From Zingiber officinale (taxonomy: Eukaryota; Streptophyta; Magnoliopsida; Zingiberales; Zingiberaceae): 64,000 bases of DNA. The notes beneath the pieces were generated by a model. It was not told the DNA's origin, searched no databases, and saw nothing but the letters and a program-made list of their open reading frames with translations. How positions within the stretch are numbered: position 1 is the stretch's first letter; every line of letters starts with the position of its first letter. Of the stretch, positions 3,361-64,000 are shown piece by piece. Both the position numbers and the translations under genes were made by a program. Location of the stretch: positions 15,239,317 to 15,303,316 of the forward strand of contig NC_055996.1 in NCBI RefSeq assembly GCF_018446385.1, written 5' to 3'.

Positions 3361-6300
3361 ATCTCCCACTTATACTAAAAGACTAAGCTGCCATATCTGC
3401 TGCCATTCATCTGATTCCCAACCCTTCAACATGTCCATCAAAAGCTCTCGCCTTAAGGACCTTAGTGAAAAGATCTATAGATCATCATCTGATGCATTCT
3501 AGGCAGCAACAACTTCTCCTCGTTTATACGATTTCTCGTATTGGGTGGTACTTGCGCTCTATTGTGTTTACTTGCCTTTATAGACTTATGATTTCTTCGA
3601 GTTTGCTACTGCACCAATATTATTACAATAAATTGTAATAATCTTTGGACAAACCAGAAATCATATCTAAGTCTATCTTGAGGTCATTGAGTCATTCAGC
3701 TTTTATGACTACCTCAGAGGCTTGCCATATACTAAATTTCTATGGTGGAGTCCAGAAAAACACCTATGCTTATCACTCTTCCATAGTTATGACTTTACCT
3801 CCTAAAGTAAACACAAAACCCCGATGTTGACTTATCCCTATCCGATTGGAAGTCAAAATCCATGCAACCCACAAGGACCAAATTAACTGCCTTGTAAACT
3901 AGCATATATTCTCTTAGTGCCTCTAAGGTACTTCAATATATGCTTTGCTGCAATCCACTGTCCTTGTCTAGGGTTATTTTGATATCTGCTAACTATGCCC
4001 TTGGCAAAACAGATTTCTGATCTCGTGCATAGCATACATTAGGCTTCCGACAGTCGAAGCATAAAGAACTGCCTTTATTTCCATTATCTCCTTTGATGTC
4101 TAAAGTTACTTCATCCTGAAAAGTTAAGAAACCTTTCTTGGAGTTTTGCATGCTTAAAACGAGCAAGGATTTTTCTGATATATGAAGCTTGGGATAAGTA
4201 AAATATTCTTTTCTTGCGATCACTTATTACTTTGATCTCAAGAATATATACATTCTCCCAAGTCCTTTATATCGAATTATTTGGACAACCATACCCTTAC
4301 TTCTGACAACATTTTGATATTGTTTCCAACTACAAAAAATGTTATCTACGTATAGTACAAGAAATACTACCACGCTTCTATCACACCTTTTGTATACACA
4401 AGACTTATCCGGTTACTAAATCCATAGAATTTGATAAACCGGATGTTCTAAGGCCTTGAAGCTTTGCCTCAGTCCATAGACTGATTGAGCTTGCACACAA
4501 GATGCTCTTAGCCCTTTGCAATGAACCCTTCTGGTTGCTTTATATGGATGCTTTCTTCAAGACTTCCATTAAGGAATGCTGTCTTGACATCCACTTGCCA
4601 AATAGATAAAAGAATCCGGATAGACTTAAGCATGGCCACCAGCGAAAATGTTTCCTTTTTCATCAAGCCTTGCTTTGAAAGTTACTATCTTCCTGTCTAT
4701 CCCTCTTTCCCTATTATAGACCTTTTTACACCCAACGGCTTTTACACCATTTGGTGATTCTACAAGCTTCCAGATTTTATTAGAATACAAATATTCTAAT
4801 TCTGTTATTCATTACTCTTTGCCAAGATGTTGCATCTTTATCTTGGAGTGCTTCATTATATGACCGGAGATCAAGTTCATGTCCTCCAAGGATCGAGTCC
4901 AAAAACTCTCCCAAAACATGAACCCATTTAGGTTGCCTAACAACCCTCCCACTACAACAAGGCACTTTCTGTAATTGTGTATCATTTGTGATACGTGTTG
5001 CAGTTTCCTTGTGGTATCTCATCTTGTACAATTGGTACTAGATTAGACATGTCTTTTATTATTTCCTTAAGAACAAATTTTCTTATGGGCACATGGTTTA
5101 TTACATAGTCCTTTTCTAAAAATCGATCATTGATGCTAACAATGACCTTCTGATTTTTAAGACTATAAATCTACTTTCATTTCACTAGGATAACCCACAA
5201 ACAAGTGAATTCCTATCCAACTTATCATTGTCTCTCTTCTGCATATGTGCTGGACTACCCGAATCCGAATATGTTTCGAAATAGGCTTACGCCTATTCAG
5301 CAATTCTATATGAGTAGAGAGTTCTGACTTTGGAAGGTACTATATTCACTTCCGTTTTCAGAGTATATCCTTAAAATGATTTTGGTAATATTCTAAATAA
5401 CTCATCAATCTACTTATTTCCATAAGAGTTCTATACCTTCCTTTTTCTACACCATTCTGTTGGGGTGTACCAGGTGCAGTTAGTTGGGATTGAATCCCTA
5501 CTTCTGATAAATGACTCCTAAATTCTCCCAAGAGGTATTTACTACTACAATCTCACCGTAGTGTCTTGATACTTTTACTTTTGATGTTTCTCCACATCAG
5601 CCTCGTACTCTTTGAACTAATCAAAGCACTTAGACTTGCGGCACATCAAGTAAATATATCCGTATCTCAAATAGTTGTCTATAAAATAGACGAAATACTT
5701 GAAACAACCTCTTGCCTGGATGCTTATAGGATCACACAAATCAGAATGAACCAATTCCAATATATCTTTGATTCCATACCCCTTAGACTTAAAAGCTTCT
5801 TGGTTATTTTTCCTTCCAAGTAAGACTCGTAGGTTGGAAAGATTTCCACTACTAATGAACCCAAAAGTTCATCAGCTACCAATGAATCTTACTTAAGTTA
5901 ATATAACCTAGCTTTAGATGCCAAAGATATAATTGGTTCAATTTCGAAGGTTGCTTTCTCTTAAAATTAGAAGATGTGTTACTAATTTCCATTTGTTGCA
6001 TCGTGGGAGTTATTGGATTATAAATTGTCAACCATCAGAATAGATAACTTCCCTATTTTTCTTGATAACAACTTTGTTATCAAAATAGTCACAATATCTA
6101 TTCTATAATAGTTTAGAAACTGAAATCAGGTTCTTTCTAAACTTGGTACGTAAAGACAATTACTTATAATCCATATTTTATTCTTATCAAAGGATAAACA
6201 TCTCCCACTGCAACAGCTACCTCTTTTACAGTAGTGCCCATGTGGACGGTGATTTACCTTTCATTTAGTTGTCGAATTTCCTGGAACCCTGCAATGAATT

Positions 6301-7915
6301 GCGGACATGATTAATGGCATCTGTATCTACATTCCAGGTTCTGGTAGATAACACCACTAAACATGTTTCAACTAATGAATTAAATACACCTATGTTGTTC
6401 TTAGTTCTAAGAAGACAGTCTACCTTAATGTCCAAGTCCTATTTCCAATCATTACAATTGAGACTACTAAGTCTTTTCTATAGTATAACAACTAGGGGAT
6501 TGACAAACATTTTAAATCCTAAGAATCACAAAAATATTTGGTCAAGATCAATTCTTTAAAATCCCCATGAATTTTGTATGCCACGATAGTGTGGACGTAT
6601 ACAAAATCAAAGAGGAGATTTTATCCATTAATTTTATTATCTCGTCAACTTTACTTTATGACGAATAAAATTAATAGTTGATCTGTCTTTGATCAAATAT
6701 TTGGTCAAAACTTTTGAATTTAAAATAAAATATTGATTCCTCAAACAATATTATTTAAATTCACCAACACCTCAAACACCGTGAATTTTGCATGCCACGT
6801 TAGTGTGGACGTATACAAATTCAACATTTGTAAAAGGAGGGTTTTACCCATTAACTATCTTGTCAACGTATCTTTATGACAAATAAAATTATCTCAAACA
6901 CCGTTAATTTTGTATGCCACGTTAGTGTGGACGTATACAAAATCAATCATTTGTAAGAGGGGTTTTAACCATTTAATTTTATTATCTTGTCAACCTAGTT
7001 TTATGACAAATTAATAGTTGGTTTCATTTGGTCACACAAATAATAGTAGTGACTCCGATGGGGAGGATACTATTAGATGTGTCTAAGTGTATACCATTAC
7101 TTGACACTAAGTCCATTAATAAGATTATGCCCCTTCCGTTGGGGAAGATCACACGCTCTTAATTAACTTCATATAGTCATCCAAAAATGGAAGTCTGTTC
7201 TAGTGATCCACAAACAAGCTCATCCGTTATGGAGGAAGGCACTCAGAGCCAACGCGCAAGATTGTTTGCATCACTTACAAACCAGTAATGGAGACCATGG
7301 GATTTATTTAAAAATCCCTCTCCCACTTAGTTATTTATAAATGAGGAATTTTAACTATGCTAGCCTACTAGTCATGTATACTAACATGCACACACAGCAC
7401 AATATAAAAGCAATAAATAGAAAATCTAATTTTCAACTATTATGGCTTTTATCTCTAGTTGTCCTCCGTGTGTTGTCATCCCAAGCTGCTACCATATTTG
7501 GCCACCGCCACCGGGTCTCTCTGTCGCATCTATCTTGTTCCTAGTTCCGCTGCGCCTCTGGTCATTAGAAAGTTCCACGCTTTGCAAGATTCGATCCGCG
7601 ACATAAATAGAATTTTACATTTTGATCCTATATTCCATAAAAGGAATGTACATGTATCTAGATCAAAAATAAAATCCTAATAAAACTAAATACAGCTCCT
7701 GCTGTATTTTAATATAATCATGCACACACAGATAAATGCCCTTGACATGTCCAAGGGTCCAATCACACACATAATAACTAAAAGCCATAATAGTTGGATC
7801 CTGCATCCACAAAGTTAGCACATCCTACTATTAACCTGCCTAAATTATGTATGACATGTGCATAATTAAACTAATACCAAATACACAGAGGCAAAACCCT
7901 AGCTCTGATACCAAT
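3361..7915 (-). mobile_element. Decayed interior of the copia element
   Basis: Short minus-strand stretches still resemble copia pol. The clearest lies near 4000-4220, where QNSKKGF and CYARD match the patterns seen in copia reverse transcriptase and connection regions. No long reading frame remains, so the interior is a fossil with many breaks. The 7900-7915 end carries the initiator-Met tRNA primer site and the 3361-3370 end carries the purine tract. The leader near 6545-7012 holds a three-copy tandem repeat. Confidence 0.75.
6545..7012. repeat. Three-copy tandem repeat in the copia leader
   Basis: The core ATGCCACG(A/T)TAGTGTGGACG followed by TATACAAA recurs at about 6579, 6800 and 6916. 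Each copy is followed by a stretch about GGGTTTTA, CCATTAA and CTTGTCAAC. The unit is about 118 bp, with a spacer between the first two copies. It lies in the untranslated leader between the primer site and gag remnants. Confidence 0.7.
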
Positions 7916-10565
7916 TGTTGGTTGCTACTCGGAAAGCCTAGAGGTTCCACTGTACAAAAATTTTGTACAAAGGTCTGAACCTTTTCCTAGCTACCATGTG
8001 TTCTTTTAAATTAAATTTTGGATCGTCTGCGGAACTTAACACGTTTGATCCAAAACTTAATCTATTCGTTCTTTTAGGTTTTGACTTGGGTCTCCTGCGG
8101 AACTTAACACGTTCGACCCAAATCACCTTAAGTTATTAATTCCATTAAATATTAATTTCCATAATTGGTTCCCAGTACTGACGTGGCGAGGCACATGGCC
8201 TTCTTGGATATGGGAGCAACCACCACCGACTAGACAAAACCTTTTATGGAAAGCTAATATTTAATTTCCTAAAATAACTTTAGGTTAACCGAAAAGAACA
8301 ATCAAATCACAAGGAAAAAAAAACAAAAGAACACAACATCGAAAAATATATTCGAAATACTAGAATCGCATGCCTCTTGTATTTGGTATTATTTCCAAAA
8401 ATAACTAGTATGATGCGGAAAGAAAATTACTAGTTATACCTTTTAGAAAGACCTCTTGATCTTCTACCGTATTCTCTTCTAACCTCGGACGTTGTGTGGG
8501 CAGCGATCTTCCGAGATGAGAAACCACCAAAGCACCTTCTTCTCCTTTCTTCAAGTTTCGGCCAAGCACTATGCTTCCAAGAGATGAAGATCTTTTCCAC
8601 CAATCAAGCTCCAAGGGATGTAAGCTTTCTCTCCTTCTTCTCAAGCTAAAATCCGGCCACCACTTGATCTTCAAGGAGGAAGAGAGGTCCGGCCACAAGA
8701 TGGAGAGAAGAGAAAGGAAGGAGGCCGGCCACACCAAGGAAGAAAAGAGGAGAAAATAATAGAGGTTGTTCACCCATGAAGGCTCCTCTACCTCCTCTTT
8801 TATAATCCTTGGTCTTGGCAAATAAGGAAATTTTAATAAAACTTCCTTAATTCTTTTGCCATGAAAAGGAAAAATTTATTTTAATTAAAATAATTTTCTT
8901 CTCACTAAAACATGGCCGGCCACTTATTTCCTCAAATCAAGGAGAGTTTTAATTAAACAAGAATTAAAACTTCCTAATTTGTTTCAGAAATTTATAAAAA
9001 TTTCTCCAATAATTTTATCCCTTCATGATTGGTTTATAAAAGGAAATTTAATAAATTAAAATCTTTCTTTTAAACATGTGGATAAAAAGAAAGTTATCTC
9101 TAAAATTAAAAACTCTTTTAATCTACAAATAAGGAAAGATATCAAATCTTTTCTTAATCTTTTGTAGAAACTTATAAAAGAGAATATTTAATTTTAAACT
9201 CTCTTTAAATCATGAACATGTTTAAAAGGAAAGTTTTCTTAAAATTTAAAATCCTCCTTTAATCAACAAATAAGGAAAGATTTCAAATTTTAAACTCTCT
9301 TTAATCATGTAGATGATTTACAAATAAGGAAAGTTTTTACCAAAATTAAAACCATCCTTTTAAACTACAAATAAGGAAAGAGATTAATCTCTTCTCTTAA
9401 TCTTTGTAGAAAGTTATAAAAGGAAATTTTAATTTTTAACTCTCTTTAAAAACATGATATCCACATAAGAAATAATTTTAATAAAAATCCTTTTAATATT
9501 CTAGTGGTGGCCACCCAAGCTTGGGACCCAAGCTTTTGGCCAGCCTTCATGGCTCATCCACTTGGTCTTGGCGGCCCTAGCTTGGGTTCCAAGCTAGCTT
9601 GGCGGCCCCATTGGATGGGTAAGAAGTGGGTACACGGTGGGTATAAATCTCTATATACTAGAGGCTACAATAGGGACCGAGAGGAGGAATTGGTTTTGGT
9701 CTCCCGATAAAATTAAGCATCCCGTGTTCGCCCCGAACACACAACTTAATTTTATCAATAATAATTCATTCCACTAGAGAACTATTATTGAACTACGCAC
9801 CAATCCCAAATTACATTTTGGGCTCCTTCTTATCATGAGTATGTTAGTCTCCCTGTGTTTAAGATAACAAATGTCCACTAATTAAGTAAGTTACTGATAA
9901 CTCACTTAATTAATATCTAGCTCCAAGAGTAGTACCACTCAACTTCATCGTCATGTCGGACTAAGTCCACCTGCAGGGTTTAACATGACAATCCTTATGA
10001 GCTCCTCTTGGGGACATTCTCAACCTAGATCACTAGGACACAGTTTCCTTCTATAATCAACAACACACACTATAAGTGATATCATTTCCCAACTTATCGG
10101 GCTTATTGATTCATCGAACTAAATCTCACCCATTGATAAATTAAAGAAATAAATATCAAATATATGTGCTTGTTATTATATTAGGATTAAGAGCACACAC
10201 TTCCATAATAACTGAGGTCTTTGTTTCTTTATAAAGTCAGTATAAAAGAAACGACCTCTAATGGTCCTACTCAATACACTCTAAGTGTACTAGTGTAATT
10301 ATATAGTTAAGATAAACTAATACCTAATTACACTACGACCTTTCAATGGTTTGTTCCTTTCCATTATGGTCGTGAGCTACTGTTTATAATTTATAAGGTA
10401 CTGATAACATGATCCTCTGTGTGTGACACCACACACCATGTTATCTACAATATAAATTAATTGAACAACTACATTTATCATAAATGTAGACATTTGACCA
10501 ATGTGATTCTTATTTCTAGATAAATATTTATACCAAAAGCTAGGCTTTTAGTATACACTCTAACA
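7916..10565 (-). repeat. 5' LTR of the copia element (right in the window)
   Basis: This is a 2650 bp copy of the LTR at 686-3360, starting TGTTGGTTGC and ending CTCTAACA. Most differences I could see from the other copy are single-base length differences in homopolymer runs, with a few substitutions and one short divergent stretch. It is directly flanked on the left by the tRNA-Met primer site and on the right by the TCAAC target duplication. Confidence 0.93.
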
Positions 10566-10570
10566 TCAAC

Positions 10571-15035: not shown

Positions 15036-17646
15036 TGTTAGAGTATATACTAAAAGTGTAGCTTTTTGTAACATTTATTTTGAAATAAAGAATCACATTG
15101 GTCAAATGTCTACATTTATATGCCAAGTGTAGTTGTTCAATTAATTTATATTGTAGATAACATGGTATGTGGTGTCACACACAGAAGATCTGTTATCAGT
15201 TCCTTATAAATTATAAATAATAGCTCACGACTAAGATGGATAGGAACAAACCATTGGAATAGTCGTAGTGTAATTTGATATTAGTTTATCTTGACTAGAA
15301 AATTACACTAGTACACTTTGAGTGTATTGAGCAGGACCATTTAAGGTAGTTTCTTTTTATACTGACTGCATAAAAGAATAAGACCTTTGTTATTATGAAA
15401 GTGTGTGCTCTTAATCCTGATATAATAACAAGCGCATATATTTAGTATTTATTTCTTTAATTTATCAAAGGGTGTGATTTAGTTCGATAAATCAATAGAC
15501 CCAATAAGTTGGGAAATAATATTATTTATAGTGTGTGTTGTTAATTATAGAAGGAAACTGTGTCCTAGGAATCTAGGTTGATGATGTCCCCAAGAGGAGC
15601 TTATAAGGATTGTCATGTAAACCCTGCAGGTGAACTTAGTCCGACATGACGATGAAGTTGAGTGGTACTACTCTTGGAGTAAGATATTAATTAAGTGAGT
15701 TGTTAGTAACTCATTTAATTAGTGGGCATTCTATATCTTAAACACAGGGAGACTAACACACCCATGATAAGAAGGAGCCCATATAGTAATATGGGATTGG
15801 TGCGGTAGTTCAATAATAACTCTTTAGTGGAATGAGATATTATTGATGAACTCGAGTTGGGTGTTCGGGGCGAACACAGGAAGCTCAAGTTCATCGGGAG
15901 ACCAAAACCAATTCCTCCTCTCGGTCCCTGTCGTAGCCTCTTATTTATAAAGTCTTATACCCACATAAACCCACCTTCTTACTCATCCCAAGGTGGTCGG
16001 CCAAGCCAAGCTTGGAGCCCAAGCAAGGGTCGGCCAAGATAAAGCTTGGATGGGTTGAGGTGTGGTCGGCCCTAGCTTGGAGCCCAAGCTTAGGTGGCCG
16101 GTCATATAAAAAATAAAGGGAATTTATTTTAAAATCTTTCCATGTGGAAGCCATGATTTAAAAGAGAGTTTTAAAATTAAATCTTTCCTTTTATAGTTTC
16201 TACAAAAGATCAAGAGAAAGGTTTGATATCTTTCCTTATTTGTAGTTAAAAGAAAGATTTTAATTTTTGATAAAACTTTTCTTTTTTTGTAACCATACTC
16301 ATGGTTTTAAAAGAGAGTTTTAAAATTTAAATCTTTCCTTTTATAGCTTTCTACAAAAGATTAAGAGAAAGATTTGATATCTTTCCTTATTTGTAGTTAA
16401 AAGGAATATTTAAATTTTGGAGAAAACTTTTCTTTTTGTAATCATCCACATGTTTTAATAGAGAGATTTTAATTTATAAAAGTTTTCTTTTATAACCAAC
16501 CATGAAGGGAATTTTTAAAGAGAAATTTTTATTTTAAAAATTTCTAGAAACAAATTAGGAAGTTTTAATTTTGTGTTTAAAACTTTTCTTATTTGGAGGA
16601 TTTGAGGTGGCCGACCAATAGAAACAAGAAAAGGAAATTTTAATTAAATTTTTCTTTCATTGGCAAAGAAATTAAGGAAGTTTTAATTAAAACTTTCCTT
16701 ATTTGCCAAGACCAAGGAATATAAAAGAGAGGGTAGAGGTGCCTCACCTCATAACAATATATCTTCTATTATTCCTCTCTTCCTTAGTGGTGGTCGGCCC
16801 TCTCTTCCTCTTCCTCTCCTATTCTTCTTCCTTGTGTGGTCGACGGTATCTTCATCTCAAGGAGCTTGGTGGTGGCCAGATCTTGTTAGAGGAAGAAGGA
16901 GAGATAGGAGGCTTTGTTTCTTAGCATCCCTTGGAGCTTGGTTGGTGGCCGAAAGTTCTTCATCACTTGAAGATTGTTGGTGGCCGAAACTTGCTTGGAG
17001 AAGAAGGAAGCTTGGGTGGATTCTCGTCTCGGTAGATCGTCGCACACACGACGTCCGAGATAAGAAGAGGAATACGATAGAAGATCGTGAGGTCTATAAG
17101 CTACAAAAGGTATAACTAGTTATTAGTTTCCGCATTATAACTAGTTTATTCTTTTGTTTAGATCTTGAAATACAAAACACAAGAGGCTAATGTTTCTAGG
17201 TTTCGGATTTATGATTCAAATTTGTGTTTCTTTTGTTTTTTGATCTTGTGATTTGATTGTTCTTATTGGTTAAACCTAGGGTTACTATAAGGAGATTAAA
17301 TATTGAATTTCGTTGAAAGACTTTATCTAGGAAGTGGTGGATGCTCCCATAACCAAGAAGGCTTAGTGCCTCGCCATGTTTAACCTGGAAGTCGATCTCT
17401 GAAATAAATATTTAATCAAATTTATAACTTAGGTGGATTTGGATTAATAATGTTAAACATCGTTTGCAATCCAAGTTTAAATTTCTAAGAACAGATAAAT
17501 TGAATTTGGAATCAATAATGTTAAGTTCTGTTTGTGATTCCAAATTTAATTTCTAAAGAACACAATAGGTTGTTAGAAAATGTTCAGGACTTGTACAAAA
17601 TTTTTGTACAAGGGAACCTGTACGATATTCCGAGTAGCAACCAACA
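15036..17646 (+). mobile_element. Solo copia LTR inserted in the gypsy LTR
   Basis: A 2611 bp LTR starts TGTTAGAG and ends ACCAACA, flanked by CCACC at 15031-15035 and 17647-17651. It is related to the LTRs of the element at 686-10565 but in the opposite orientation and clearly diverged. It has the same AT-rich subrepeats, the same end palindrome (near 17592-17610) and the same general layout. No internal domain is present, so it is the product of LTR-LTR recombination. Confidence 0.92.
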
Positions 17647-51939: not shown

Positions 51940-52605
51940 CTGATGATCCTTAACAGCACTACAACCCGCCGATTCCGCACCTCCCAGCAAATAGCCCAGT
52001 GCAGTCTCCGCAGCTTCACGCACCTACTGGATCTCTCTCTCTCTCAGCACGCTCCGCTGCCATGATTCCGCGAGCTGGTTGGAGCAGGAAAGAAAAGATT
52101 TCATCTTTCTAACTTTTGGCGAGATCATGGCGTCGCTTTTGAGTGCGCCGATGCAGACGCTATGCTTTCTCCTCCGCTGAGATCAATCCAGCAATTTCCT
52201 AGCTCAAAAGGAACAGGAAAGTTCCCTGTTCTTCTCTGCCTCTGCATCTAACTCTGCGCCACGAATTCAATTGGCATGGGCATCGAATCAAGAACAGTGA
52301 TAAATAGATCGTAACGCTCTCTTGATATATCGGCTCTATCCGATATTTCAACTACTGTATGGATCAAAACCATCATTAATTGTCTGGTTATAATTTTTTA
52401 AAATAATATTATATAACTAACTATAATCATATTAATTTCAGCAATTTACGTACACCAAATTTTGAATTTATCAAATGGTGCACTATAATTTTATTTTATC
52501 AAAGGACGTCCCTTACACTGACATCCTTATTTCCTATCTCATTTTTCAAAATATCTAATCAGATTGTTATTTGAAAATGATTTAAAAATATTATTGAAGT
52601 TTGGG
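51940..52605. promoter_or_regulatory. HAM leader and promoter
   Basis: A GA/CT run at 52032-52045 lies in the probable 5' untranslated leader. The region to about 52380 is unique-looking. From about 52440 it passes into repeat-derived sequence related to the end of the adjacent giant element. No other gene was seen. Confidence 0.45.
52440..52600. repeat. Extra diverged copy of the giant element's terminal sequence
   Basis: The stretch GAATTTATCAAATGG through CAAAGGACGTCCCTTACACT and CCTTATTTCCTATCTC parallels 52655-52740 (AAATTTATCAAAATAAG, TTAAATGACGCATC, CTTATTCTACTCTCC). It lies just outside the TACTAATGGCG repeat. It may be an older solo terminus or a separate MITE of the same family. 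Confidence 0.5.
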
Positions 52606-52616
52606 TACTAATGGCG
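52606..52616. repeat. Left flanking direct repeat (target duplication) of the giant inverted-repeat element
   Basis: TACTAATGGCG here is repeated in the same orientation at 63771-63781. If the inverted terminus includes CG, the duplication proper is 9 bp (TACTAATGG). Confidence 0.8.
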
Positions 52617-52879
52617 GCCATTTATCAAAAGATGTATTTAAGTTTTTAAATTTATCAAAATAAGTATACTACTTTAGCATTTATTAAATGACGCATCTTT
52701 TTACCGTGTTCTTCTTATTCTACTCTCCTAACAAATTTAATTGATTTCTTTTTTCTTTTCTTTATCATTTCTCTCTCTTATCTTTCCTACTATGCACATG
52801 CAACGTATCAACTCTTTTCTTTTCTTTTCTTTTTTTATTTTCTCTTTGTTTTTTATTTTTTTTATATATTTGTTTTCTC

Positions 52880-55415
52880 AAACATGTTATAAGAGATCAA
52901 AATCACGTTGAGCCTAATATCTCTCCATATCAGACCCAATGTGGGCCTGATATGGAGAGATATCAGACCTAACAACAGGGGAAAAAAAGAGATTTAGATT
53001 TTTCAACACCTCTGGTCCACTACTAGAAATGTCGAAAATAATAATGGAGGACATATTTAGACTCCTTGCAATTTTAGAAATCTATAGGATCTGAAATGCT
53101 TGCAATCTGAGGTCTCTAAATCGATCAGTGAGTTTTGACCAAAATTCACTGATGGACCTAGAGAGCTCCGATTGTACCCATTTTAGTTCCTGTAGATTTC
53201 TAAAATTGCAAGGAGTCCAAATATGCTCTCCATTATTATTTTTGACATTCCTAGTGGTGGACCAAAGGTTTTGAAAAACCTAAATCTACCGTTTTTTTTT
53301 TTGTTATTAGGCCTGATATGAAGAGATATCAGACCCACGTTGGGCCTGATATCTCTTCATATCAGGCCTAATGTAGGCATGATATCTCCCCATATCAGGC
53401 CCAACGTGGGCCTGATATGGGAGATATCAGGCCTAATAACAAAAAAAAAAGAAAAAAATAATAAATAAATAAATAAAGAGAGATTTAGGATTTTCAAAAT
53501 CTCTAGTCTACCACTAGGAATGTCGAAAATAATAATGAAGAGTATATTTGGACTCCTTTTAATTTTATAAATCCACAGGAACTGAAATGGGTGCAATCAG
53601 AGCTCTCTAGGTCCATTAGTGGGTTTCGGTCAAAATCCACTGATGGACCTAGAGAGCTCTGATTGCACCAATTTCAGTTTATGTGGATTTCTAATATTGC
53701 AAGGAGTTAAAATATGCTATCTATTATTTATTTCAACTTCTAAAAGATGTTAAAATATAATAAGAAATAATCAGCAAAACAATCTCTATACATTTTAGGT
53801 TTTTCAAAACCTCTGGTCCACCACTAAGAATGTCAAAACTAACAATGGAGAGCATATTTGAACTCCTTGCAAAATTAAAAATCTATAGAAACTGAAATCA
53901 GTGCAATCGGAGCTCTCTAGGTCTAAATCTCTCTCTCTTTCTTTTTTTTCTTTTTTTTTGTTATTAGGCCTGATATGAAGAGATATCAGGCCCACGTTGG
54001 GCTTGATATCTGTTCATATCAGGCCCAATTTGGGTCTGATATCTCCCCATATTAGGCCCAACGTGGACCTGATATGGGAGATATCAGGCTTAATAACAAA
54101 AAAAGAAAGAAAGAGAGATTTAGGTTTTTCAAAATCTCTGGTCCACCACTAGGAATGTCGAGAATAATAATGAAGAGCATATTTGGACTCCTTGCAAATT
54201 TAGAAATCCACAGGAACTGAAATGTGTGCAATCGGAGCTCTCTAGGTCCATTAGTGGGTTTCGGTCAAAACCCACTGATGGACCTAGAGAGCTCCGATTG
54301 CACCCCTTTCAGTTTCTGTGGAATTCCAATGTTGCAAGGAGTTAAAATATGCTATTTATTATTTATTTTAACATATGAAAGATGTTAAAATATAATAAGA
54401 AATAATCAGCAAAATATTTTCCTTACATTTTAGGTTTTTCAAAACCTCTGGTCCACCACTAGGAATGTCGAAAATAATAATGAAGAGCATATTTGGACTC
54501 CTTGTAATTTTAGAAATCCGTAGGAACTGAAATGGGTGCAATCTGAGCTCTCTAGGTCCATTAGTGGATTTCGGTCAAAACCCACTAATGGATCTTGATT
54601 ATTTTCGGCATTCCTAGTGGTGGACCAGAGGTTTTGAAAAACCTAAAACATTTGGGGAATGTGTTGCTGATTATTTCTTATTATATTTTAACATCTTATA
54701 GAAGCTAAAATAAATAATAGATAACATATTTTAACTCCTTACAATATTATAATTCCATAGAAACTGAAATGAGTGCAATCGGAGCTCTCTAGGTCCATTA
54801 GTGAGTTTTGACCGAAACTCACTGATGGAACTAGAGAGCTCTGATTGCATCCATTTCAGTTCCTCTGGATTTCTAAAATTGCAAGCAATCCAAATATGCT
54901 CTTCATTATTATTTTCGACATTCCTAGTGGTACACCAGAGGTTTTAAAAAACCTAAAACGTATTGGGAATATGTTGCTGATTATTTATTATTATATTTTA
55001 ACATCTTTTAGAAGTTAAAATAAATAATAGATGACATATTTTAACTCCTTGCAATATTAGAATTCCACATAAACTTAAATGGGTGCGATCAGAGCTCTCT
55101 AGGTCCATCAGTGGATTTTGATCGAATCCCACTAATGGAACTACAGAGCTCCGATTACACCTATTTCAGTTCCTGTGGATTTCTAAAATTGCAAGGAGTC
55201 CAAATATGCTTTTCATTATTATTTTCAGCATTCCTATTGGTGGACCAGAGGTTTTGAAAAATCAAAATCTCTTTCTTTTTTTTTTAAATTTTTTTTCTTT
55301 TTTTTGTTATTAGGCCTGATATCTCCCATATCAGGTCCACGTTGGGCCTGATATAGGGAGATAACCGGCCCACATTGGGCCTGATATGAACAGATATCAG
55401 GCTTAACGTGACCCT
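52880..55415. repeat. Left arm: cluster of palindromic units
   Basis: Unit A is a hairpin of about 300 bp. One side reads GGTTTTTCAAAACCTCTGG, CCACCACTAGGAATGTCG, ACTCCTTGCAATTTTAGAA, GAAATGGGTGCAATCGGAGC, TCTCTAGGTCCAT, and the other side is its inverse. Centres lie near 53140, 53625, 54260, 54575, 54815 and 55125. Unit B, GCCTGATATCTCTCCATATC then AGGCCCAACGTGGGCCTGAT, is palindromic and lies near 52915-52965, 53305-53435, 53965-54090 and 55315-55405. A and B alternate, joined by A/T runs. Confidence 0.85.
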
Positions 55416-56027
55416 TGTTGGTTGGCCCTAGGAAGTGTTGGAACCGATATGGCCGCTAGAGGGGGGGGGTGAATAGCGTTTTGTCGCACTTGCTCGTTCT
55501 TACTTCGTCTTGATAATGTGCAGCGGAATACAAAGACAAAACAAAACAAAACACTCACAACGCTAAGACCTAGGGTTTACTTGGTATCCACCTCAAGATG
55601 AAGTGATTAATCCAAGGATCCACACGACACACCTATCTCCACTATGAAAACCTCCTTCTCAGTCGCAGCTGGAGGCGGAGAAGCCTCGTACAACACTCAC
55701 ACACAACACAACATAGATACAATAAGAAGAAACAAAAAATACAACTCAATACACTCTTCTTCTTGCTTACTTGTTGCTTGTCGTGGCCTCTTGAACCTTG
55801 GGGATGCATCTTAAGAGCCTTCAAGAACGGGCGGAGAAGCTCGGAGAAAATCGCTGTGGATCGCAGTAAGCTTGCGCAAGAAAGTTCGCAAAGAACTACA
55901 GAGAAAACGCTTCACAACGGCTATATACAGTGCCTCCAATTGATCCAAAATAGCTCCAATCGACTGCCACGTCAGCTCTGCACAATCCCAGCTGTCCATC
56001 GCCTGCAACCTGCGCAACGGTCAAATT

Positions 56028-56390
56028 CCCAATCGATCGACCAATCGATTGGGACCATCTGAATCGATTGGCCAATTGATTCAGACCATTCTGTGCTCTC
56101 TGGAAATGGCTGGATCGATCGACCGATCGATCCAGCTGTTCTCGCGACTCCTCGCACGAGAACTTCAGGTCCCAATAGATCCACCGATCGATTGGGACTC
56201 CCAATAGATCGCCCGATCGATTGGGACTCCCAATAGATCGCCCGATCGATTGGGATGCCTTCTGTGCTCGCGAGTGATGCTCCCAATCGATCGACCGATC
56301 GATTGGAGCCATTCCACACTCGCAACACACTCCAATCGATCGACTGATCGATTGGAGCCTTGTTCAATCGATCACCCGATCGATTGAACA
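56028..56390. repeat. Array of nine imperfect palindromes (ATCGATCG core)
   Basis: Units such as CAATCGATCGACCAATCGAT and CAATAGATCGCCCGATCGAT, each followed by TGGGA or TGGAG, occur about every 30-50 bp. Most are near-perfect inverted repeats around a CC or AC centre. The array lies within the solo LTR. Confidence 0.85.
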
Positions 56391-56460
56391 ACCTGGACTT
56401 GACTCAAACTCAAGTCCAAACTCTCCAACCCAACTCTCGGTCAACCGTGACCTGTTGGGT

Positions 56461-57240
56461 CTTCATGACTAGCATTTGACCACACTCGACCAACCTCGAA
56501 CTAGCCTTCTAGCCTCCTCCATCAGCCTTGCGTCTCTCGGATATCTCCCATCCTTTACGTCTTACCTTCAGGAGCTTCCTTCGGCCTCATCCTAGTTGTC
56601 GGATTATACACCACACTCGATCAACCTCGAACTAGCCTTCTAGCCTCCTCCATCAGCCTTGCGTCCCTCGGATATCTACCCATCCTTCATGCCTTGCCTT
56701 CAGGAGCTTCCTTCAGCCTTATCCTAGTTATCAAGTTCTCCTTGCCAAGTCACACTAGGACTTACCTTGCCAAGACCACATTCTTGGACTTCCCAATTGC
56801 CTGGCTCCTTACCAGGGCTTTCTCCTTTGCCAAGATCACACTTGGACTTTCAACCTGTGCCAAGTTCACACTTGAACTTTCCAAATGTCTGGCTCCTCAC
56901 CAGGACTTTCCTTTTGCCAAGATCACACTTGGACTTTCCAATTGCCTGGCTTCTCACCAGGACTTTCCCTTTGCCTAGCCATACTAGGACTTTCCAATTG
57001 CCTGATCTCACTTATCAGGACTTTCACCATCAAGTCTGGTCAACACTAACCTATTTGGATTTTCACTCTTGCCAACCTTCCTGTTAGACTTACCTTTACC
57101 TAATCTCCAATTAAGACTTTCCCAATCAAGTCTCCTGTCAACCTTGACCTACTTGACTTCTCTATTACCTAACCTCCAGTTAGGACTTTCCCATTGCCTA
57201 AACTCCAGTTAGGACTTACCTGATCAAGTCTCCGGTCAAC
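56461..57240. repeat. Tandem repeats in the nested solo LTR
   Basis: Two direct copies of about 140 bp start at about 56470 and 56610 (ACCACACTCGA(C/T)CAACCTCG ... CCTCCATCAGCCTTGCGT). They are followed by a series with CTTGCCAAGATCACACTTGG and CCTGGCTCCTCACCAGGACT from about 56750 to 57010, then shorter variants (CCTAACCTCCAGTTAGGACT) to 57240. Each unit contains a small inverted repeat (CCTGG...CCAGG, CTAA...TTAG). Confidence 0.75.
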
Positions 57241-59818
57241 ACTGACCCACTTGACTTGTCTTCTCATCAACCTGATCAATTCCTTGACCATCTCCATAAT
57301 CGGACGATTGCTCCAGCAATCTCCATATATTGTCAAACATCAAAACTCAATCCCAACTCAAGCTTGACTCAACTCAAGCTTAGTCAAACTGGTCAAACTT
57401 GCCCTAGGGAAATTGCCTCAACGGGAAGATCGTACCGGTTCCACTGTATAAAAATTTTGTACAAGTGTCGAACCTTTTCTAAACAACCTATTGTGTTATT
57501 TAGAAATTAAATTAGGAATCGCAAACGGAACTTAACATTATTGATTCTAAATTTAACTTATCTGTTCTTGATGGTTTAGATTTGGATCGCAAGCGGAACT
57601 TAACACTATTGATCCAAATCCACCTATGTTATAAAGTTGATTAAATATTTATTTCTAAAATCGGCTCCCAGGTCAAACATAGCGAGGCACTAGACCTTCT
57701 TGGGTATGGGATCATCCACCACTGCCTCGACAAAGCCTTTAATAGAAATTTAATATTTAATTTCCAAAAATAACATTAGGTTTAACCGAAAAGAACAATC
57801 GAATCACAAATTCGAAAAACAAAAAAAACACAACTTCGAAACAAATATGAAATTCTAGAATCATATGCCTCTTGTGTTTGGAATTCTAACAAAGAAGAAC
57901 TAGTATGATGTGGAAAATAATTACTAGTTATACTTCTTCTTTGTATGCTAATAACCTCGAGATCTTCTGCCGTATTCCTCGCCTCCTCTTGGACGTCGTG
58001 TGGGCGACGATCCTCCAAGATGAACACCACCCAAAGCTCCTCCTCCTCCTCTAGTATTCGGCCACCACCACCACCAAGGAACATAAGAGAGCAAGGGGAA
58101 AAGAAAGAAGAGAGGGGTTGGCCACAATGAAGAGCTCCAACAAGAGAATAAGAATTGATGTATCATGAGGTCTCCCCTCCCCTTCTTTTATAGTACTTGC
58201 CCAAGGAAAATAAGGAAAATATTTTTACAAAAATTAAAATCTTCCTCTTGTTTTTCCTTTTCCCCTTTTATTTTTCCTTTTCCTTCCTCTTGATTGATTC
58301 AATCATTGATTGGCTGGCCCCTTGCTTGGGCACCAAGCAAGGGTGGCCGACCCCTTAAAAGAGGAAAAAAAACTTTGTAAAAATTTTATAAGCAAAGAAG
58401 GAAAAGCTCTTATAAAATTTTACAACCTCTCTTTTAATTCCCTAAAGTGGATGTTAAAAAAAGGAAAGTTTTAAAAATTAAAACCAAGTTTTAAAATTTA
58501 AAACTTCTCTTCTAAAATTTCTTTTTTTAACATGGTTACAAAAATAGAAAGTTTCAAATTTAAAACTCCCTTCCTTTTTTCTGAAACCATGAGGATGGTT
58601 AAAAAAGAAAAGTTTTAAAACTTTTAAACTTTCTTTTAAACCATGTGGCCTAATTCAAATAAGGAAAGTTTTATATTTTAAAATATCTCTTTTAAAACTT
58701 GTAGATATCTACAAAGAGAAGATTTTAAATTCAAAACACCCCTCCTAGTTTGAATTTTATGGCCGATCCCCTTTACAAAACTTGTGGTCGGCCCCTTTAG
58801 AGAAGATGGTGGCCGGCCCCTTGGCTTGGTCACCAAGCCTTGGGCCGACCCTCCTCTTGGAAACCAAGATGGGCTTTATATGAGTGGATTTAAGGCTTCA
58901 TTGAGGCTACGACAGGGACCTAAAGGAGAAATTGGTTTTGGCCTTCTGACGAGCTTGAGTATCCTGTGTTCGCCCCGAACACACAACTCAAGTTCATCAA
59001 TAATAACTCATTCCACTAGAGAGTTATTATTGCACTATCACACCAATCTCAAATTATATTATGGGCTCCTTCTTATCATTAGTGTGTTAGTCTCCCTGTG
59101 TTTAAGATATCGAATGCCCACTAATTAATTGAGTTACTGACAACTCATTTTAATTAATGTCTTAATCCAAGAGTAGTACCACTCAACCTCATTGTCATGT
59201 CGGACTAAGTCCACCTGCAGGGTTTAACATGACAATCCTTATGAGCTCCTCTTGGGGACATTCTCAACCTAGATTACTAGGACACAGTTTTCTTCTATAA
59301 TCAACAACACACACTATAAGTAATATCATTTCTCAACTTATCGGGCCTATTGATTTATCGAACTAAATCTCACCCTGTGATAAGATAAAGAAATAAATAC
59401 TAAATATATATGCTTGTTATTATATTAGGATTAAGAGTACGCACTTCCATAACAACTAAGGTCTAGTTCTTTTATTAAGTCAGTATAAAAAGAACTTACC
59501 TAAAATGGTCTTATTCAATGCACTTAGAGTATACTATTATAATTTATTAGTCAAGATAAACCAATACCTAATTACACTACGACTATTCCAATGGTTTGTT
59601 CCTTTCTATCTTAGTCATGAGCAACTGTTTATAATTTATAAAGAACTAATAACATGATCTTCTGTGTGTGACACCACACACCATGTTATCTACAATATAA
59701 ATTAATTGAACAACTACACTTAACAAATAAATGTAGACATTTGACCAATGTGATTCTTTTATTTCAAAAAATAAATGTTTACAAAAACTAGGCTTTTAGT
59801 ATATACTCTAACATCCCT

Positions 59819-62374
59819 TGTTAGAGTGTATACTAAAAGCCTAGCTTTTTTAAACATTTATTTTTAAATAAAGAATCACATTGGTAAAAAATGTCTATAT
59901 TTATATGATAAGTGTATTTGTTCAATTAATTTATATTGTAGATAACATGGTGTATGGTGTCACACGCAGAAGATCATGTTATCGGTTCTTTATAGATTAT
60001 AAACAGTAGCTCATGACTAAGATGGATAGGAACAAACCATTGGAATAGTCGTATTGGTTTATCTTAACTATAAAATTACACTAGTACACTTTGGTGTATT
60101 GAGCGGGACCATTTAAGGTAAGTTCTTTTGTGCTTAAAAAATAACAAGACCTTAGTTATTATGGAAGTGTGTGCTGTTAATAACAAGCACATATATTTAG
60201 TATTCATTCTTTAACTTATCAAGGGTGAGATTTCGATAAATCAATAAGTCCGATAAGTTGGGAAATATTACTTATAGTGTGTGTGATTATAGAAGGAAAC
60301 TGTGTCCTGATACCCCCAAGAGGAGCTCATAAGAATTATCATGTTAAACCCTGCAGGTGGACTTAGTCCGACATGATGATAAGGTTGAGTGGTACTACTC
60401 TTGGACTAAGATATTAATTAAAGAGAGTTGTCAGTAACTTATTTAATTAGTGGACATTCAACATCTTAAACACAGGGAGACTAACACACTCATAATAAGA
60501 AGGAGCCCAAAATGTAATTTGAGATTGGTGCGGAAGTTCAATAATAATTCTTTAGTGGTATGAATTATTATTAATGAAATTAAGTTGGGTGTTCGGGACG
60601 AACACGGGAAGCTTAATTTCATCAGGAGACCAAAACCAATTCCTCCTCTCGGTCCCTATCGTAGCCTCTTGTATATAGAGAATTATACCCACCGCATACC
60701 CACTTCTTACCCACCCTTAGGTCGCCGACCAAGCTAGATTGGAGCCCAAGCTAGGGCCGGCCAAAGCCAAGAGTGGAGCCAATTTAAGGTGGCCGGCCAA
60801 AGCTTGGATCCCAAGCTTAGGTGGTCGGCCACTAGAAAATAAAAGGGATTTTATTTAAAATCTTTTCTTATGTGGATATCATGGGTTTAAAAGAGAGAGT
60901 TTAAAATTTAAATATTTCCTTTTATAGCTTTCTACAAAAGATTAAGTGAAAAATTTGATATCTTTCCTTATTTGTAGTTAAAAGGAAGATTTTAATTTTT
61001 GATAAAACTTTCCTTTTTTGTAACCATGTTCATGATTTAAAAGAGAGTTTTAAAATTAAATATTTCCTTTTATAAGTTTCTATAAAAGATTAAGAAAAGA
61101 TTTGATATCTTTCCTTATTTGTAGATTGAAATGATGATTTTAATTTTAGAGAAAAATTTTCTTTTTGGAAATCATCCACATGTTTTAATAGAGAGATTTT
61201 AATTTATAAAATTTCCTTTTATAACCAACCATGAAGGGAAAAATTATTAGAGAAATTTTTATTAAAAATTTCCGGAAACAAATTAGGAAGTTTTAATTCT
61301 TGTGTTAAAACTTTCCTTGCTTGGAGCTATGAGGTGGTCGACCATGTGGATTTAAGAAAAGGAAATTAGTTTTAATTAATTAAATTTTCCTTTTCATGGC
61401 AAAGAAAATAAGGAAGTTTTTATTTAAATTTTTCTTATTTGCCAAGACCAAGGATTATAAAAGAGGGGGTAGGGGTGCCTTCATGGGTAACAACTCTATT
61501 CTATTTTTCCTCCCTCTCTTCCTTGGTGGTGGCCAGCCCTAGACCTTGCTCTTCTCCTCTTCTCTTCTTCTTTAGTGGCCGGTTTCATCCCTCTCTTGGA
61601 GCTCTTGTTGGTGGCCGATTCTAGCTTAGAGAAGAAGGAGAGAAAGGAGGCTTTGTTTCTAGCATCCCTTGGAGCTTGGTGGTGGTGGCCGAAACTCTTC
61701 ATCTCAAGGAGGAGTGTTTGGCCGAAACTTGCAAGGAGGAAGAAGATGGGTTTGGGTGGTTCTCATCTCGGTAGATTGTTGCCCACACAACGTCCGAGAT
61801 AAGAAGAGGAATACGGTAGAAGATCAAGAGGTTGTTGCTTACAAAGAAAGGTATAACTAGTAATTATTTTCTGCATCATACTAGTTTTTTCTTTGTATGA
61901 ATTCCAAACACAAGAGGCATATAATTCTAGGTTTCGAATTTGTGATTCGAGTTTGTGTTTTTTTTTGTTTTTCGAATTTGTGATTTGATTGTTCCTTTTG
62001 GTTAAACGTAGGGTTATATAAGGAAATTAAATATTAGATTTCATTGAAAGACTTTGTCTAGGAAGTAGTGGTTGCTCCCATATCCAAGAAGGCCTAGTGC
62101 CTCGCCATGTTTAACCTGGAAGCCAATTTCTGAAATTAATATTTAATTGAATTTATAACATAGGTGGATTTGGATCAATAATGTTAAGCATCATTTGCAA
62201 TCCAAATCTAAACCATTAAGAACAGATAAGTTAAATTTGGAATCAATAATGTTAAGTTCCGTTTGCGATTCTGAATTTAATTTCTAAAGAACACAATAGG
62301 TTATTAGGATAGGTTCGACACTTGTACAAAATTTTTGTACAGTGAAACCGGTATGATCTTCCTAGGACTAACCA
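59819..62374 (+). mobile_element. Solo copia-type LTR, plus orientation
   Basis: It begins TGTTAGAGTGTATACTAAAA and ends CTTCCTAGGACTAACCA, 2556 bp. Its sequence is the inverse of the LTR at 55416-59813 along its length, with divergence. Only TCCCT (59814-59818) separates the two. The right flank is TCATA, so no matching target duplication is visible for this copy. Confidence 0.88.
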
Positions 62375-62882
62375 TCATATCAGGTCTAATAACAAAAAAA
62401 AAAGAAAAAAGAAAGAAAAAAAAAGAAAGAAAGAGAGATTTAGACCTAGAGAGCTCCGATTGCACCCATTTCAGTTTTTGTGAATTTCTAATTTTGCAAG
62501 GAGTTCAAATATCCTCTCTATTGTTATTTTTGGCATTCTTAGTGGTGGACCAGAGGTTTTGAAAAACCTAAAATGTATAGGGATTATTTTGCTGATTCTT
62601 TCTTATTATATTTTAACATCTTTTAGAAGTTAAAATAAATAATAGATAGTATATTTTAACTCCATGCAATATTAGAAATCTACAGAAACTGAAATGAGTG
62701 CAATCAGAGCTCTCTAAGTCCATCAGTGAGTTTTGACCGAAACCCACTGATGGACCTAGAGAGCTCCGATTGCACCCATTTCAGTTCCTGTGGATTTCTA
62801 AAATTGCAAGGAGTCCAAATATGCTCTTCATTATTATTTTCGACATTCCTAGTGGTAGACCAGATGTTTTAAAAAACCTAAA

Positions 62883-62916
<34 letters not shown>

Positions 62917-63520
62917 TTTTTAAAATTTTTTTTTTTTGTTATTAGGCTTGATATCTCCCATATCAGGCCCACGTTGGGCCTGATATGGGGAGATATCAGG
63001 CCCACATTAGACCTGATATGAAGAGATATCAGGCCCAACGTGGGCCTGATATCTCTTCATATCAGGCCTAATAACAAAAAGAAAAAAAAGAACGGTAGAT
63101 TTAGGCTTTTCAAAACCTCTGGTCCACCACTAGGAATGTCAAAAAAAATAATGGAGAGTATATTAGGACTCCTTGCAATTTTAGAAATACATAGGAACTG
63201 AAATGTGTGCAATCGGAGCTCTCTAGGTCCAAAAGTGAGTTTCGGTTAAAGTCCACTGATCGACTTAGAGACCTCAGATTGCAATCATTTCAGATCCTGT
63301 AGATTTCTAAAATTGCAAGGAGTCTAAATATGCTCTCCATTGTTATTTTCGACATTTCTAGTAGTGGACTAGAGGTGTTGAGAAATCTAAATCTCTCCTT
63401 TTTTTCCTTTTTTGTTTTTTTCCCTGTTGTTAGGCCTGATATCTCTCCATATCAGGCCCACTTTGGGCCTGATATGGAGAGATATCAAGCTCAATGTGGG
63501 TTTGATCTCTTATAACATGT
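62375..63520. repeat. Right arm: cluster of the same palindromic units
   Basis: Unit A centres are near 62740 and 63240, and unit B copies are near 62945-63075 and 63430-63490. The order mirrors the left arm near 52900-53300. The arm continues outward as the non-palindromic terminal sequence to 63770. Confidence 0.85.
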
Positions 63521-63770
63521 TTGAGAAAAAAATAAAAAAAAAACAAAGAGAAGATAAAAAAGAAGAAGGAAAGAGAAGATACATTGCATGCATAATAGGA
63601 AAGAGAAGAGAGAGAAATGACAAAGAAAAGAAAAAGGAAATCAATTAAATTTGTTAGGAGGGTAGAATAGGAAGACCACTGTAAAAAGGTGCGCCATTTG
63701 GTAAATGCTAAAGTAGTATGCTTCTTTTGGTAAATTCAAAAACCTAAGTACGCCTTTTGGTAAATTGTCG

Positions 63771-63781
63771 TACTAATGGCG
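63771..63781. repeat. Right flanking direct repeat of the giant element
   Basis: TACTAATGGCG, the same as 52606-52616 and in the same orientation, directly follows the inverted terminus. Confidence 0.8.
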
Positions 63782-64000
63782 TAAACATTTTTCTCCCTCT
63801 CTCTCTTAGCAAGTGCAGGTCTAATATCTTTTCTTAATTCTTTGATTTCAAAAATCTAGTGCTATGTTTTAGTGGCGAGATCATTTCCCACTGAAAGTCT
63901 ACGCAACTGTCTTCGTGTGTTCCTTAGGTGGCGTCAAGAGTTTCCAACGAAATCTACAATGATCGTCTCTCTGCAATGAAGGGTTTAAGGTTTTCATCAA
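63782..64000 (+). other. Right flank, possible exon start at the window edge
   Basis: After the giant element the sequence is unique-looking. An acceptor-like TTCCTTAG at 63921-63928 is followed by an open plus-strand stretch (VASRVSNEIYNDRLSAMKGL) to the window end. I do not recognise the protein, and 24 codons are too few to be sure it is coding. Confidence 0.2.

Follow-up and report, generated by a model that had tools for sequence, protein, structure and literature searches.

Foldback transposons with long palindromic repeats at both ends are represented in plants by FARE1 of Arabidopsis (Windsor and Waddell 2000), which is classed among the Mutator-like elements (MULEs) in PMC4486113. 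A plant foldback with similarly long end palindromes, set beside FARE1 by description only, lies in a 64,000-nucleotide stretch of the ginger (Zingiber officinale) genome (contig NC_055996.1, positions 15,239,317 to 15,303,316 of the forward strand; hereafter the window). Counted with its later insertions the element spans positions 52615-63770 of the window, and it is very probably a non-autonomous, multicopy, non-coding foldback of the Mutator superfamily that would be moved in trans by the transposase of a related MULE. The MuTAnT elements of Medicago are likewise non-autonomous MULEs with modular long terminal inverted repeats (TIRs) that form a foldback, and they too have a longer, transposase-bearing relative, AutoMuTAnT. 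MuTAnT copies are described as mostly 200-300 bp long (up to more than 1.6 kb) and as targeting TA-microsatellites (PMC4486113), whereas the ginger foldbacks measure 1.7-4.5 kb, are composed of many modules and show no TA-microsatellite target in 12 sites. Among animals, Tm1 of root-knot nematodes is reported to have composite TIRs, mostly 9-bp duplications and both transposase-bearing and non-coding members, but its TIRs are built of tandem units of 13-15 bp and not of nested palindromes (PMC3169594). Tetris of Drosophila virilis has long modular TIRs, 8-10 bp duplications and tandem expansion of its TIR units, although its authors describe finding no autonomous copy (PMC4079207). FB4 of Drosophila, also an animal element and likened here by description only, is presented as a non-autonomous foldback with repeated and inverted modules and palindromic extremities (PMC2955051). 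With these five systems described, the idea, raised in a first-pass annotation of the window, that no named family has such a modular architecture is not supported.

The long ginger MULEs that are related to the foldback resemble in turn the Ulp1-bearing Kaonashi MULEs and the VANDAL elements, which are reported to carry mudrA, an Ulp1 domain in reverse orientation and noncoding motif arrays (PMC2528002, PMC13317346, PMC5735166). In these accounts Kaonashi and VANDAL have no TIRs or degenerate ones, whereas the long ginger element on contig C4 has an 82-bp TIR, large palindromic arrays and foldback relatives. Both modular foldbacks and Ulp1-bearing MULEs are already known. A foldback family tied by ends and modules to Ulp1-bearing MULEs was not found in the literature searched, and the Zingiber papers, judged by title, dealt with other matters, the coverage being partial in both cases; the ginger system is therefore regarded as a variant within a known class. 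Foldbacks may stand without a known autonomous partner, as Tetris does. Since the same kinds of module are present here between the genes of coding MULEs that share the end motif, the step from MULE to foldback is open to sequence study.

The sequence TACTAATGGCG occurs on the + strand of the window only at 52606 and 63771 and nowhere on the - strand, in agreement with the direct repeat noted in the first-pass annotation. The proposed duplication of 9-11 bp is upheld at 9 bp, as TACTAATGG (52606-52614 and 63771-63779, identical at 9/9 positions), and falls at 11 bp because the CG that follows opens the element itself at the left copy and is flanking DNA at the right copy. Any longer duplication was likewise rejected in the offset comparison given below. 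The element's own left start is CGGCCATTT. Its arms, 52620-53978 and, inverted, 62375-63765, are 87.1% identical over 1,408 columns, close to the roughly 85% over more than 1 kb that had been estimated by eye. The foldback's own DNA comprises the left arm and centre (52615-55434, + strand) and the remaining right arm (62363-63770, - strand), their inner boundaries being approximate and drawn from the inverted match between the arms, an alignment to a copy on contig C12 (L047) and, for the right arm, the module search. Together they come to about 4.2 kb, the size predicted for the element before it was interrupted; judged against the C12 copy, about 55435-62362 consists of two blocks inserted later.

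The arms are indeed made of alternating palindromic units, as had been claimed, and a module map was drawn by searching four modules, T, P, Q and B, against the element. The outer module T is about 270 bp long, the P unit is 33 bp of the form GGGCCTGATAT..ATATCAGGCCC, the Q half is about 142 bp and in head-to-head pairs gives palindromes of about 300 bp, and the spacer B is 70 bp. The left T (52615-52901, + strand; 84% match) carries, in the terminal alignment, a triplet of ATTTACCAAA-type repeats at its terminus with a spacing of about 30 bp, and the right T lies at 63500-63770 (- strand) and as a query returns at least 40 scored genome matches, the T query having the 9-bp duplication at its outer end. 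Inwards from the left T follow P units (52905-52973), a Q palindrome (52993-53284, with Q> at 52993-53130 and Q< at 53143-53284), a P array (53310-53436), a Q palindrome with B spacer and Q half (53484-53923), a second P array (53967-54059), the central Q palindromes with B spacers (54119-55267), which are roughly mirror-symmetric about 54600, and a third P array (55310-55409). The right arm has the left arm's module order in mirror image, with a Q half, B spacer and Q palindrome (62443-62882), a P array (62942-63068), a Q palindrome that is the mirror of 52993-53284 (63100-63391) and P units adjoining T (63429-63497). The element thus has the long inverted repeats of internal modules, with little or no middle, that characterise the foldback structural class.

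Siblings were sought in 3,090,333,446 bases of ginger sequence in 211 contigs, the large ones designated up to C22. Queries with either end, 295 bp on the left and 282 bp on the right, return at least 40 scored genome matches apiece, and an F1-type end (a 53-mer with at most 3 mismatches), F1 being the foldback subfamily of the window copy, is present at 33 genome places against 0 for the control. Copies with these ends and modules were recovered at many places, with the 9-bp duplication seen at several unrelated sites, a result that the first-pass annotation had named as support for its reading. F1 copies include L048 (3.87 kb), L049 (3.27 kb), L050 (1.75 kb), L051 (1.7 kb), the C12 copy L047, L020, and L052, which contains a nested insert. 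The uninterrupted L048 is self-complementary from end to end (3,968 columns at 86.0%, with 87% of bases mirrored), and 76-82% of bases take part in a self-complementary match in L049-L051. In 20 first-order Markov simulations of L048 inverted matches reached at most 33 bp, compared with the whole 3.87-kb element observed. The longest ATG-started open reading frame in L047-L051 is 81-107 amino acids, and no coding part had been seen in the first-pass annotation. A second foldback subfamily, F2, is represented by L074 (C6:83469743, 3.84 kb) and L075 (C7:91592336, 4.46 kb), which share the end motif and P units, have 9/9 duplications and differ from F1 in the inner T sequence. Copies also differ in the number of their Q, B and P units, as is expected of duplication and inversion.

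The flanking duplication was assessed in 12 insertions with both ends, namely seven F1 copies, two F2 copies and three long elements, leaving out L047 and L021 as likely haplotype copies of insertions already counted. The 9-bp flanks agree at 105 of 108 bases; ten insertions match at 9/9, L050 at 8/9, and L020, with a T-rich flank and an uncertain right end, at 7/9. Shifting the comparison by one to four bases either way lowers the mean match to 2.75-4.42 of 9, and cross-pairings of the flanks give a mean of 3.61 of 9, with 2 of 132 reaching 8 or more. Mutator target-site duplications range from 8 to 11 bp, and the 9 bp found here lie within this range.

The link to coding MULEs rests on the end motif CGGCAATTTACCAAAAGGCG, which as a 20-mer with at most 1 mismatch is found at 467 genome places, its reversed control at 0. 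Among the places listed, the distance between exact ends in facing orientation is 14-27 kb for several pairs and 48 kb for one. A long-type end occurs at 101 genome places (control 0). Three long elements of 14.2, 12.8 and 8.6 kb were delimited at C4:33451616-33466025 (L069 and L070), C14:87008630-87021560 (L071 and L072) and C16:27153920-27162605 (L073), the C4 pair being taken from the end-motif list and the C14 and C16 pairs from the long-type end list. All three have the same end motif, 9/9 duplications and P and Q modules, and the ends of C4, like those of F1, show a terminal triplet of ATTTACCAAA-type repeats spaced by about 30 bp. The C4 element has a TIR of 82 bp at 91.5%, which sets it apart from the absent or degenerate TIRs of VANDAL. 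Its - strand encodes, over several frames, matches to DBD_Tnp_Mut (PF03108, 30.9 bits against a cut-off of 25), MULE (PF10551, 36.5 against 27.6, with the rest of the domain in a second frame at 14.8, below the cut-off), SWIM (PF04434, 31.6 against 19.6) and Transposase_mut (PF00872, 27.2 against 21). On the - strand of the C14 element a single stop-free frame of 487 codons matches MULE (63.5 bits), SWIM (34.5) and Transposase_mut (30.3), and a neighbouring frame matches DBD_Tnp_Mut (31.0), all above cut-off. A mudrA-like transposase is thus found in elements with the foldback's end motif, C4 and C14, and none in the foldback itself. The C16 element, by alignment to C4, lacks most of the transposase gene and has no long frame for it; on its + strand are two exons with matches to Peptidase_C48 (24.1 and 23.8 bits against a cut-off of 20.7), the domain by which Ulp1-bearing MULEs are known, and an exon upstream of these matches DUF1985 at 16.0 bits (16.0-16.1 across scans, cut-off 35.1). 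The Ulp1-like frames of C4 and C14 were recognised by eye only. In the C4 stretch a P/Q palindromic complex occupies about 4062-7458, with the Ulp1-like region on one side of it and the transposase gene on the other; the two genes are on opposite strands and both point towards the complex. P and Q modules lie between the two genes of C14 as well, again on opposite strands, at about 4183-6145 and 8626-9230. The C14 element also contains, at about 6471-7310, a stop-free frame of 281 codons that by eye resembles one in L056, a copy of the host repeat described next.

Both flanks of the insertion are parts of a single repeat, designated H, whose left end, with the same terminal motif pattern of three spaced repeats, is at 52439-52605 (+ strand) and which runs on past the window from 63780-64000 (+ strand). 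Six paralogous copies, L041-L046, start at the same place as this left end, and the right flank (63782-64000) returns at least 40 scored genome matches. When the joined flanks of the window copy were compared with the six paralogs, as a stand-in for the empty-site comparison suggested in the first-pass annotation, four (L041, L043, L045 and L046) showed no break at the junction and had a single target-like sequence there (TGCTAATGG in the case of L043), and these continuous sites therefore support insertion. The exact target letters are present in none of the six, and about 20 bases are missing at the junction in L042 and L044; the outcome is thus favourable in four of six and without the exact target. 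Next to the H copies of L042 and L044 the + strand holds, from about 2080 onwards, an open frame some 350 codons long, which by eye resembles an OST3/OST6-like host gene.

H itself is a decayed relative of the long elements. Beyond the window its copy L055 aligns with the C4 element at 73.5% over 1,786 columns and 75.9% over 922 columns, and one of its five stop-free frames that were scanned matches Peptidase_C48 weakly, at 19.3 bits where the cut-off is 20.7. Q- or P-like stretches are also seen in L055 and L056; no MULE transposase was recognised by eye in either, and the right end of H was not found in them. From the terminal grammar of the H ends and the alignment of L055 to C4, the window foldback jumped to a position about 170 bp inside the left end of a decayed element of the likely partner's own group.

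The ginger genome has been assembled with haplotypes resolved, as 11 pairs and 3.1 Gb (PMC8342452), and contigs C3/C4, C5/C6 and C11/C12 could be paired by matching flanks. The C12 copy L047 (C12:18742310-18748715) is taken as the other haplotype's copy of the window insertion.

Given the shared end motif, the 9-bp duplications, the P and Q modules and the transposase in the long elements, MULEs like these most likely move the foldback in trans. Their transposase would recognise the ATTTACCAAA-type sites that recur at each end of the foldback and would move it by cut and paste, the mechanism with the best support. The foldback itself may have originated from a MULE that lost its genes and kept its ends and palindromic modules, and duplication and inversion would then have enlarged and reshuffled these modules. 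As for the window copy, it jumped into the decayed element of the same group and received its own insertions later. Several observations weigh against this scheme. No allelic empty site was found, the C12 copy being filled as well, and none of the long elements found has F1-type ends. Two wide F1 pairs, both narrower than the widest one listed (C5:110411420-110428282, 16.9 kb), were read in part: L053 (C19, 8.6 of about 13.2 kb) and L054 (C17, 9.0 of about 14.9 kb) hold retroelement-like frames and, by eye, no transposase; the insert of L052 (C5:102639100-102647300) has internal inverted repeats and no stop-free frame of 120 codons. The end motif was absent within 1.5 kb of the best 12 of 150 listed PF10551 matches. 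Furthermore, the F1 T module and the C4 TIR are only 78-80% alike over some 80 bp, and the P and Q modules about 70-91%; direct descent of F1 from the three long elements does not follow from these values, and F1 may stem from a different subfamily or from one that has been lost. The suggestion of the first-pass annotation that this is a foldback with a target duplication, linked to long-TIR Mutator-like elements, is supported by the siblings with the same ends and 9-bp duplications, the paralogous sites without the element and the transposase-bearing MULEs with the same end motif.

Two further proposals concern what the modules do and are compatible with mobilisation by a partner MULE. The first, which is possible but on balance improbable, holds that the inverted modules give rise to hairpin RNA and small RNAs that silence the partner MULEs in trans. 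Mu killer of maize is the comparison for such hairpin silencing of MULEs. The self-complementarity of L048 over 3.87 kb would suit this role, and long TIRs of Mutator-like elements are described as often being a source of small interfering RNA (PMC10398659). In the P dyads of the long elements pairing and compensatory changes show a mild excess (419 of 588 dyad cells pair, where shuffles average 388; double changes number 19, where shuffles average 11.7 and reach at most 20). Among the foldbacks themselves, 527 of 708 dyad cells pair in F1, fewer than the 563 of the shuffles, and only 2 double changes occur where shuffles give 21.6, and F2 cells pair at 315 of 384 against 319, with 3 double changes against 5.5; compensatory changes in the P dyads are thus not seen in F1 or F2, and there is no sign of selection for pairing there.

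The second proposal is that the P arrays, with units of 28-33 bp and two conserved half-sites, are binding sites of the MULE's own Ulp1/DUF1985-type protein, so that the foldback would ride on its partner's anti-silencing; it is considered unlikely. Arabidopsis VANC proteins, which contain DUF1985, are reported to bind the noncoding motif arrays of their own MULE families and to cause loss of methylation (PMC5735166, PMC10398659), and VANC genes carrying Ulp1 are mentioned in a review (PMC13317346). VANC targets are described as dense tandem motif arrays in noncoding DNA, and VANC6 as acting on the unrelated AT9TSD1, which has its motifs (PMC5735166). The distribution of the P core words, CCTGATAT or ATATCAGG, would fit such a role, with 4.7-7.8 per kb in F1 foldbacks and 2.3-2.8 in the three long elements, compared with 0.73 and 0.38 in H-type elements, 0.31 in the flanks of L048-L051 (1 in 3.2 kb), 0.04 in window positions 1-52000 (2 matches) and none in 39 kb around 12 other MULE loci. 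A 26-base P unit (at most 1 mismatch) is found at 784 genome places against 0 for the control. Tandem 33-bp P units are moreover situated upstream of Ulp1-like exons in L073 (890-1030, with a different centre) and in L071 (near 918-983). Over the 11 positions of the half-site, 2-10 are conserved at 77-100%, the outermost at 60-95% and the eleventh at 62-100%, a conservation to which the search itself contributed in part, since it admitted no unit with more than 3 changes in a 9-base half; the unit centre differs between F1 and the long elements, and some F2 centres are common to F1. The DUF1985 match, at less than half of its cut-off, also tells against this role, as does the form of the VANC21 motifs, which are short, in one orientation and by their letters not palindromic, whereas P units are palindromes. 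The parallel with VANC is suggestive only. In a fuller and slightly more doubtful version, an Ulp1/DUF1985-type protein would recognise dyad P sites (GGGCCTGATAT, about 6 bases, ATATCAGGCCC) that were amplified into large palindromic arrays between and upstream of the MULE genes, and the foldbacks would be such arrays set free, gaining both anti-silencing and transposition from the partner. If this were true the foldback would be nearly pure target DNA that codes for nothing. The dense dyad arrays beside an Ulp1-like gene permit a direct test for VANC-type anti-silencing outside Arabidopsis, in MULEs with TIRs.

Other origins for the element itself fare worse. Foldbacks can arise in several lineages according to the account of Tetris (PMC4079207), and the ginger element could be imagined as a foldback of another superfamily, such as P or hAT, with ends that resemble those of mudrA elements by chance; the 9-bp duplications speak against this, as do an end motif with 0 control matches and P and Q modules that are common to the foldback and the mudrA-bearing elements, and this explanation is very improbable. 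That the structure is no transposon at all, but a palindromic satellite or a segmental rearrangement, has next to no likelihood, since, despite the occurrence at C5:110411402-110412471 and C6:90866038-90866710 of T and its flank in tandem copies spaced by about 396 bp, the same ends and 9-bp duplications recur at unrelated sites and paralogous sites without the element contradict it for this locus. Each tandem copy comprises T and about 115 bp of its flank; the copies follow one another head to tail with a period of 396-397 bp, three of them at the C5 location and at least two at the C6 one (L003, L011, L013, L014, L016 and L019), and they are perhaps an incipient satellite made from a foldback end.

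The insertions that interrupt the window copy are not part of the foldback. The C12 copy lacks the first, 55435-57423, and also all of about 58617-62555. The first insertion is about 2 kb long and holds repeated CGATCGATTGG-type words. The second, 57424-62362, of which about 1.2 kb is kept in the C12 copy, contains two head-to-head repeats of about 2.5 kb that resemble long terminal repeats, and relatives of this repeat are located elsewhere in the window at about 686-3361, 7916-10567 and 15036-17646.

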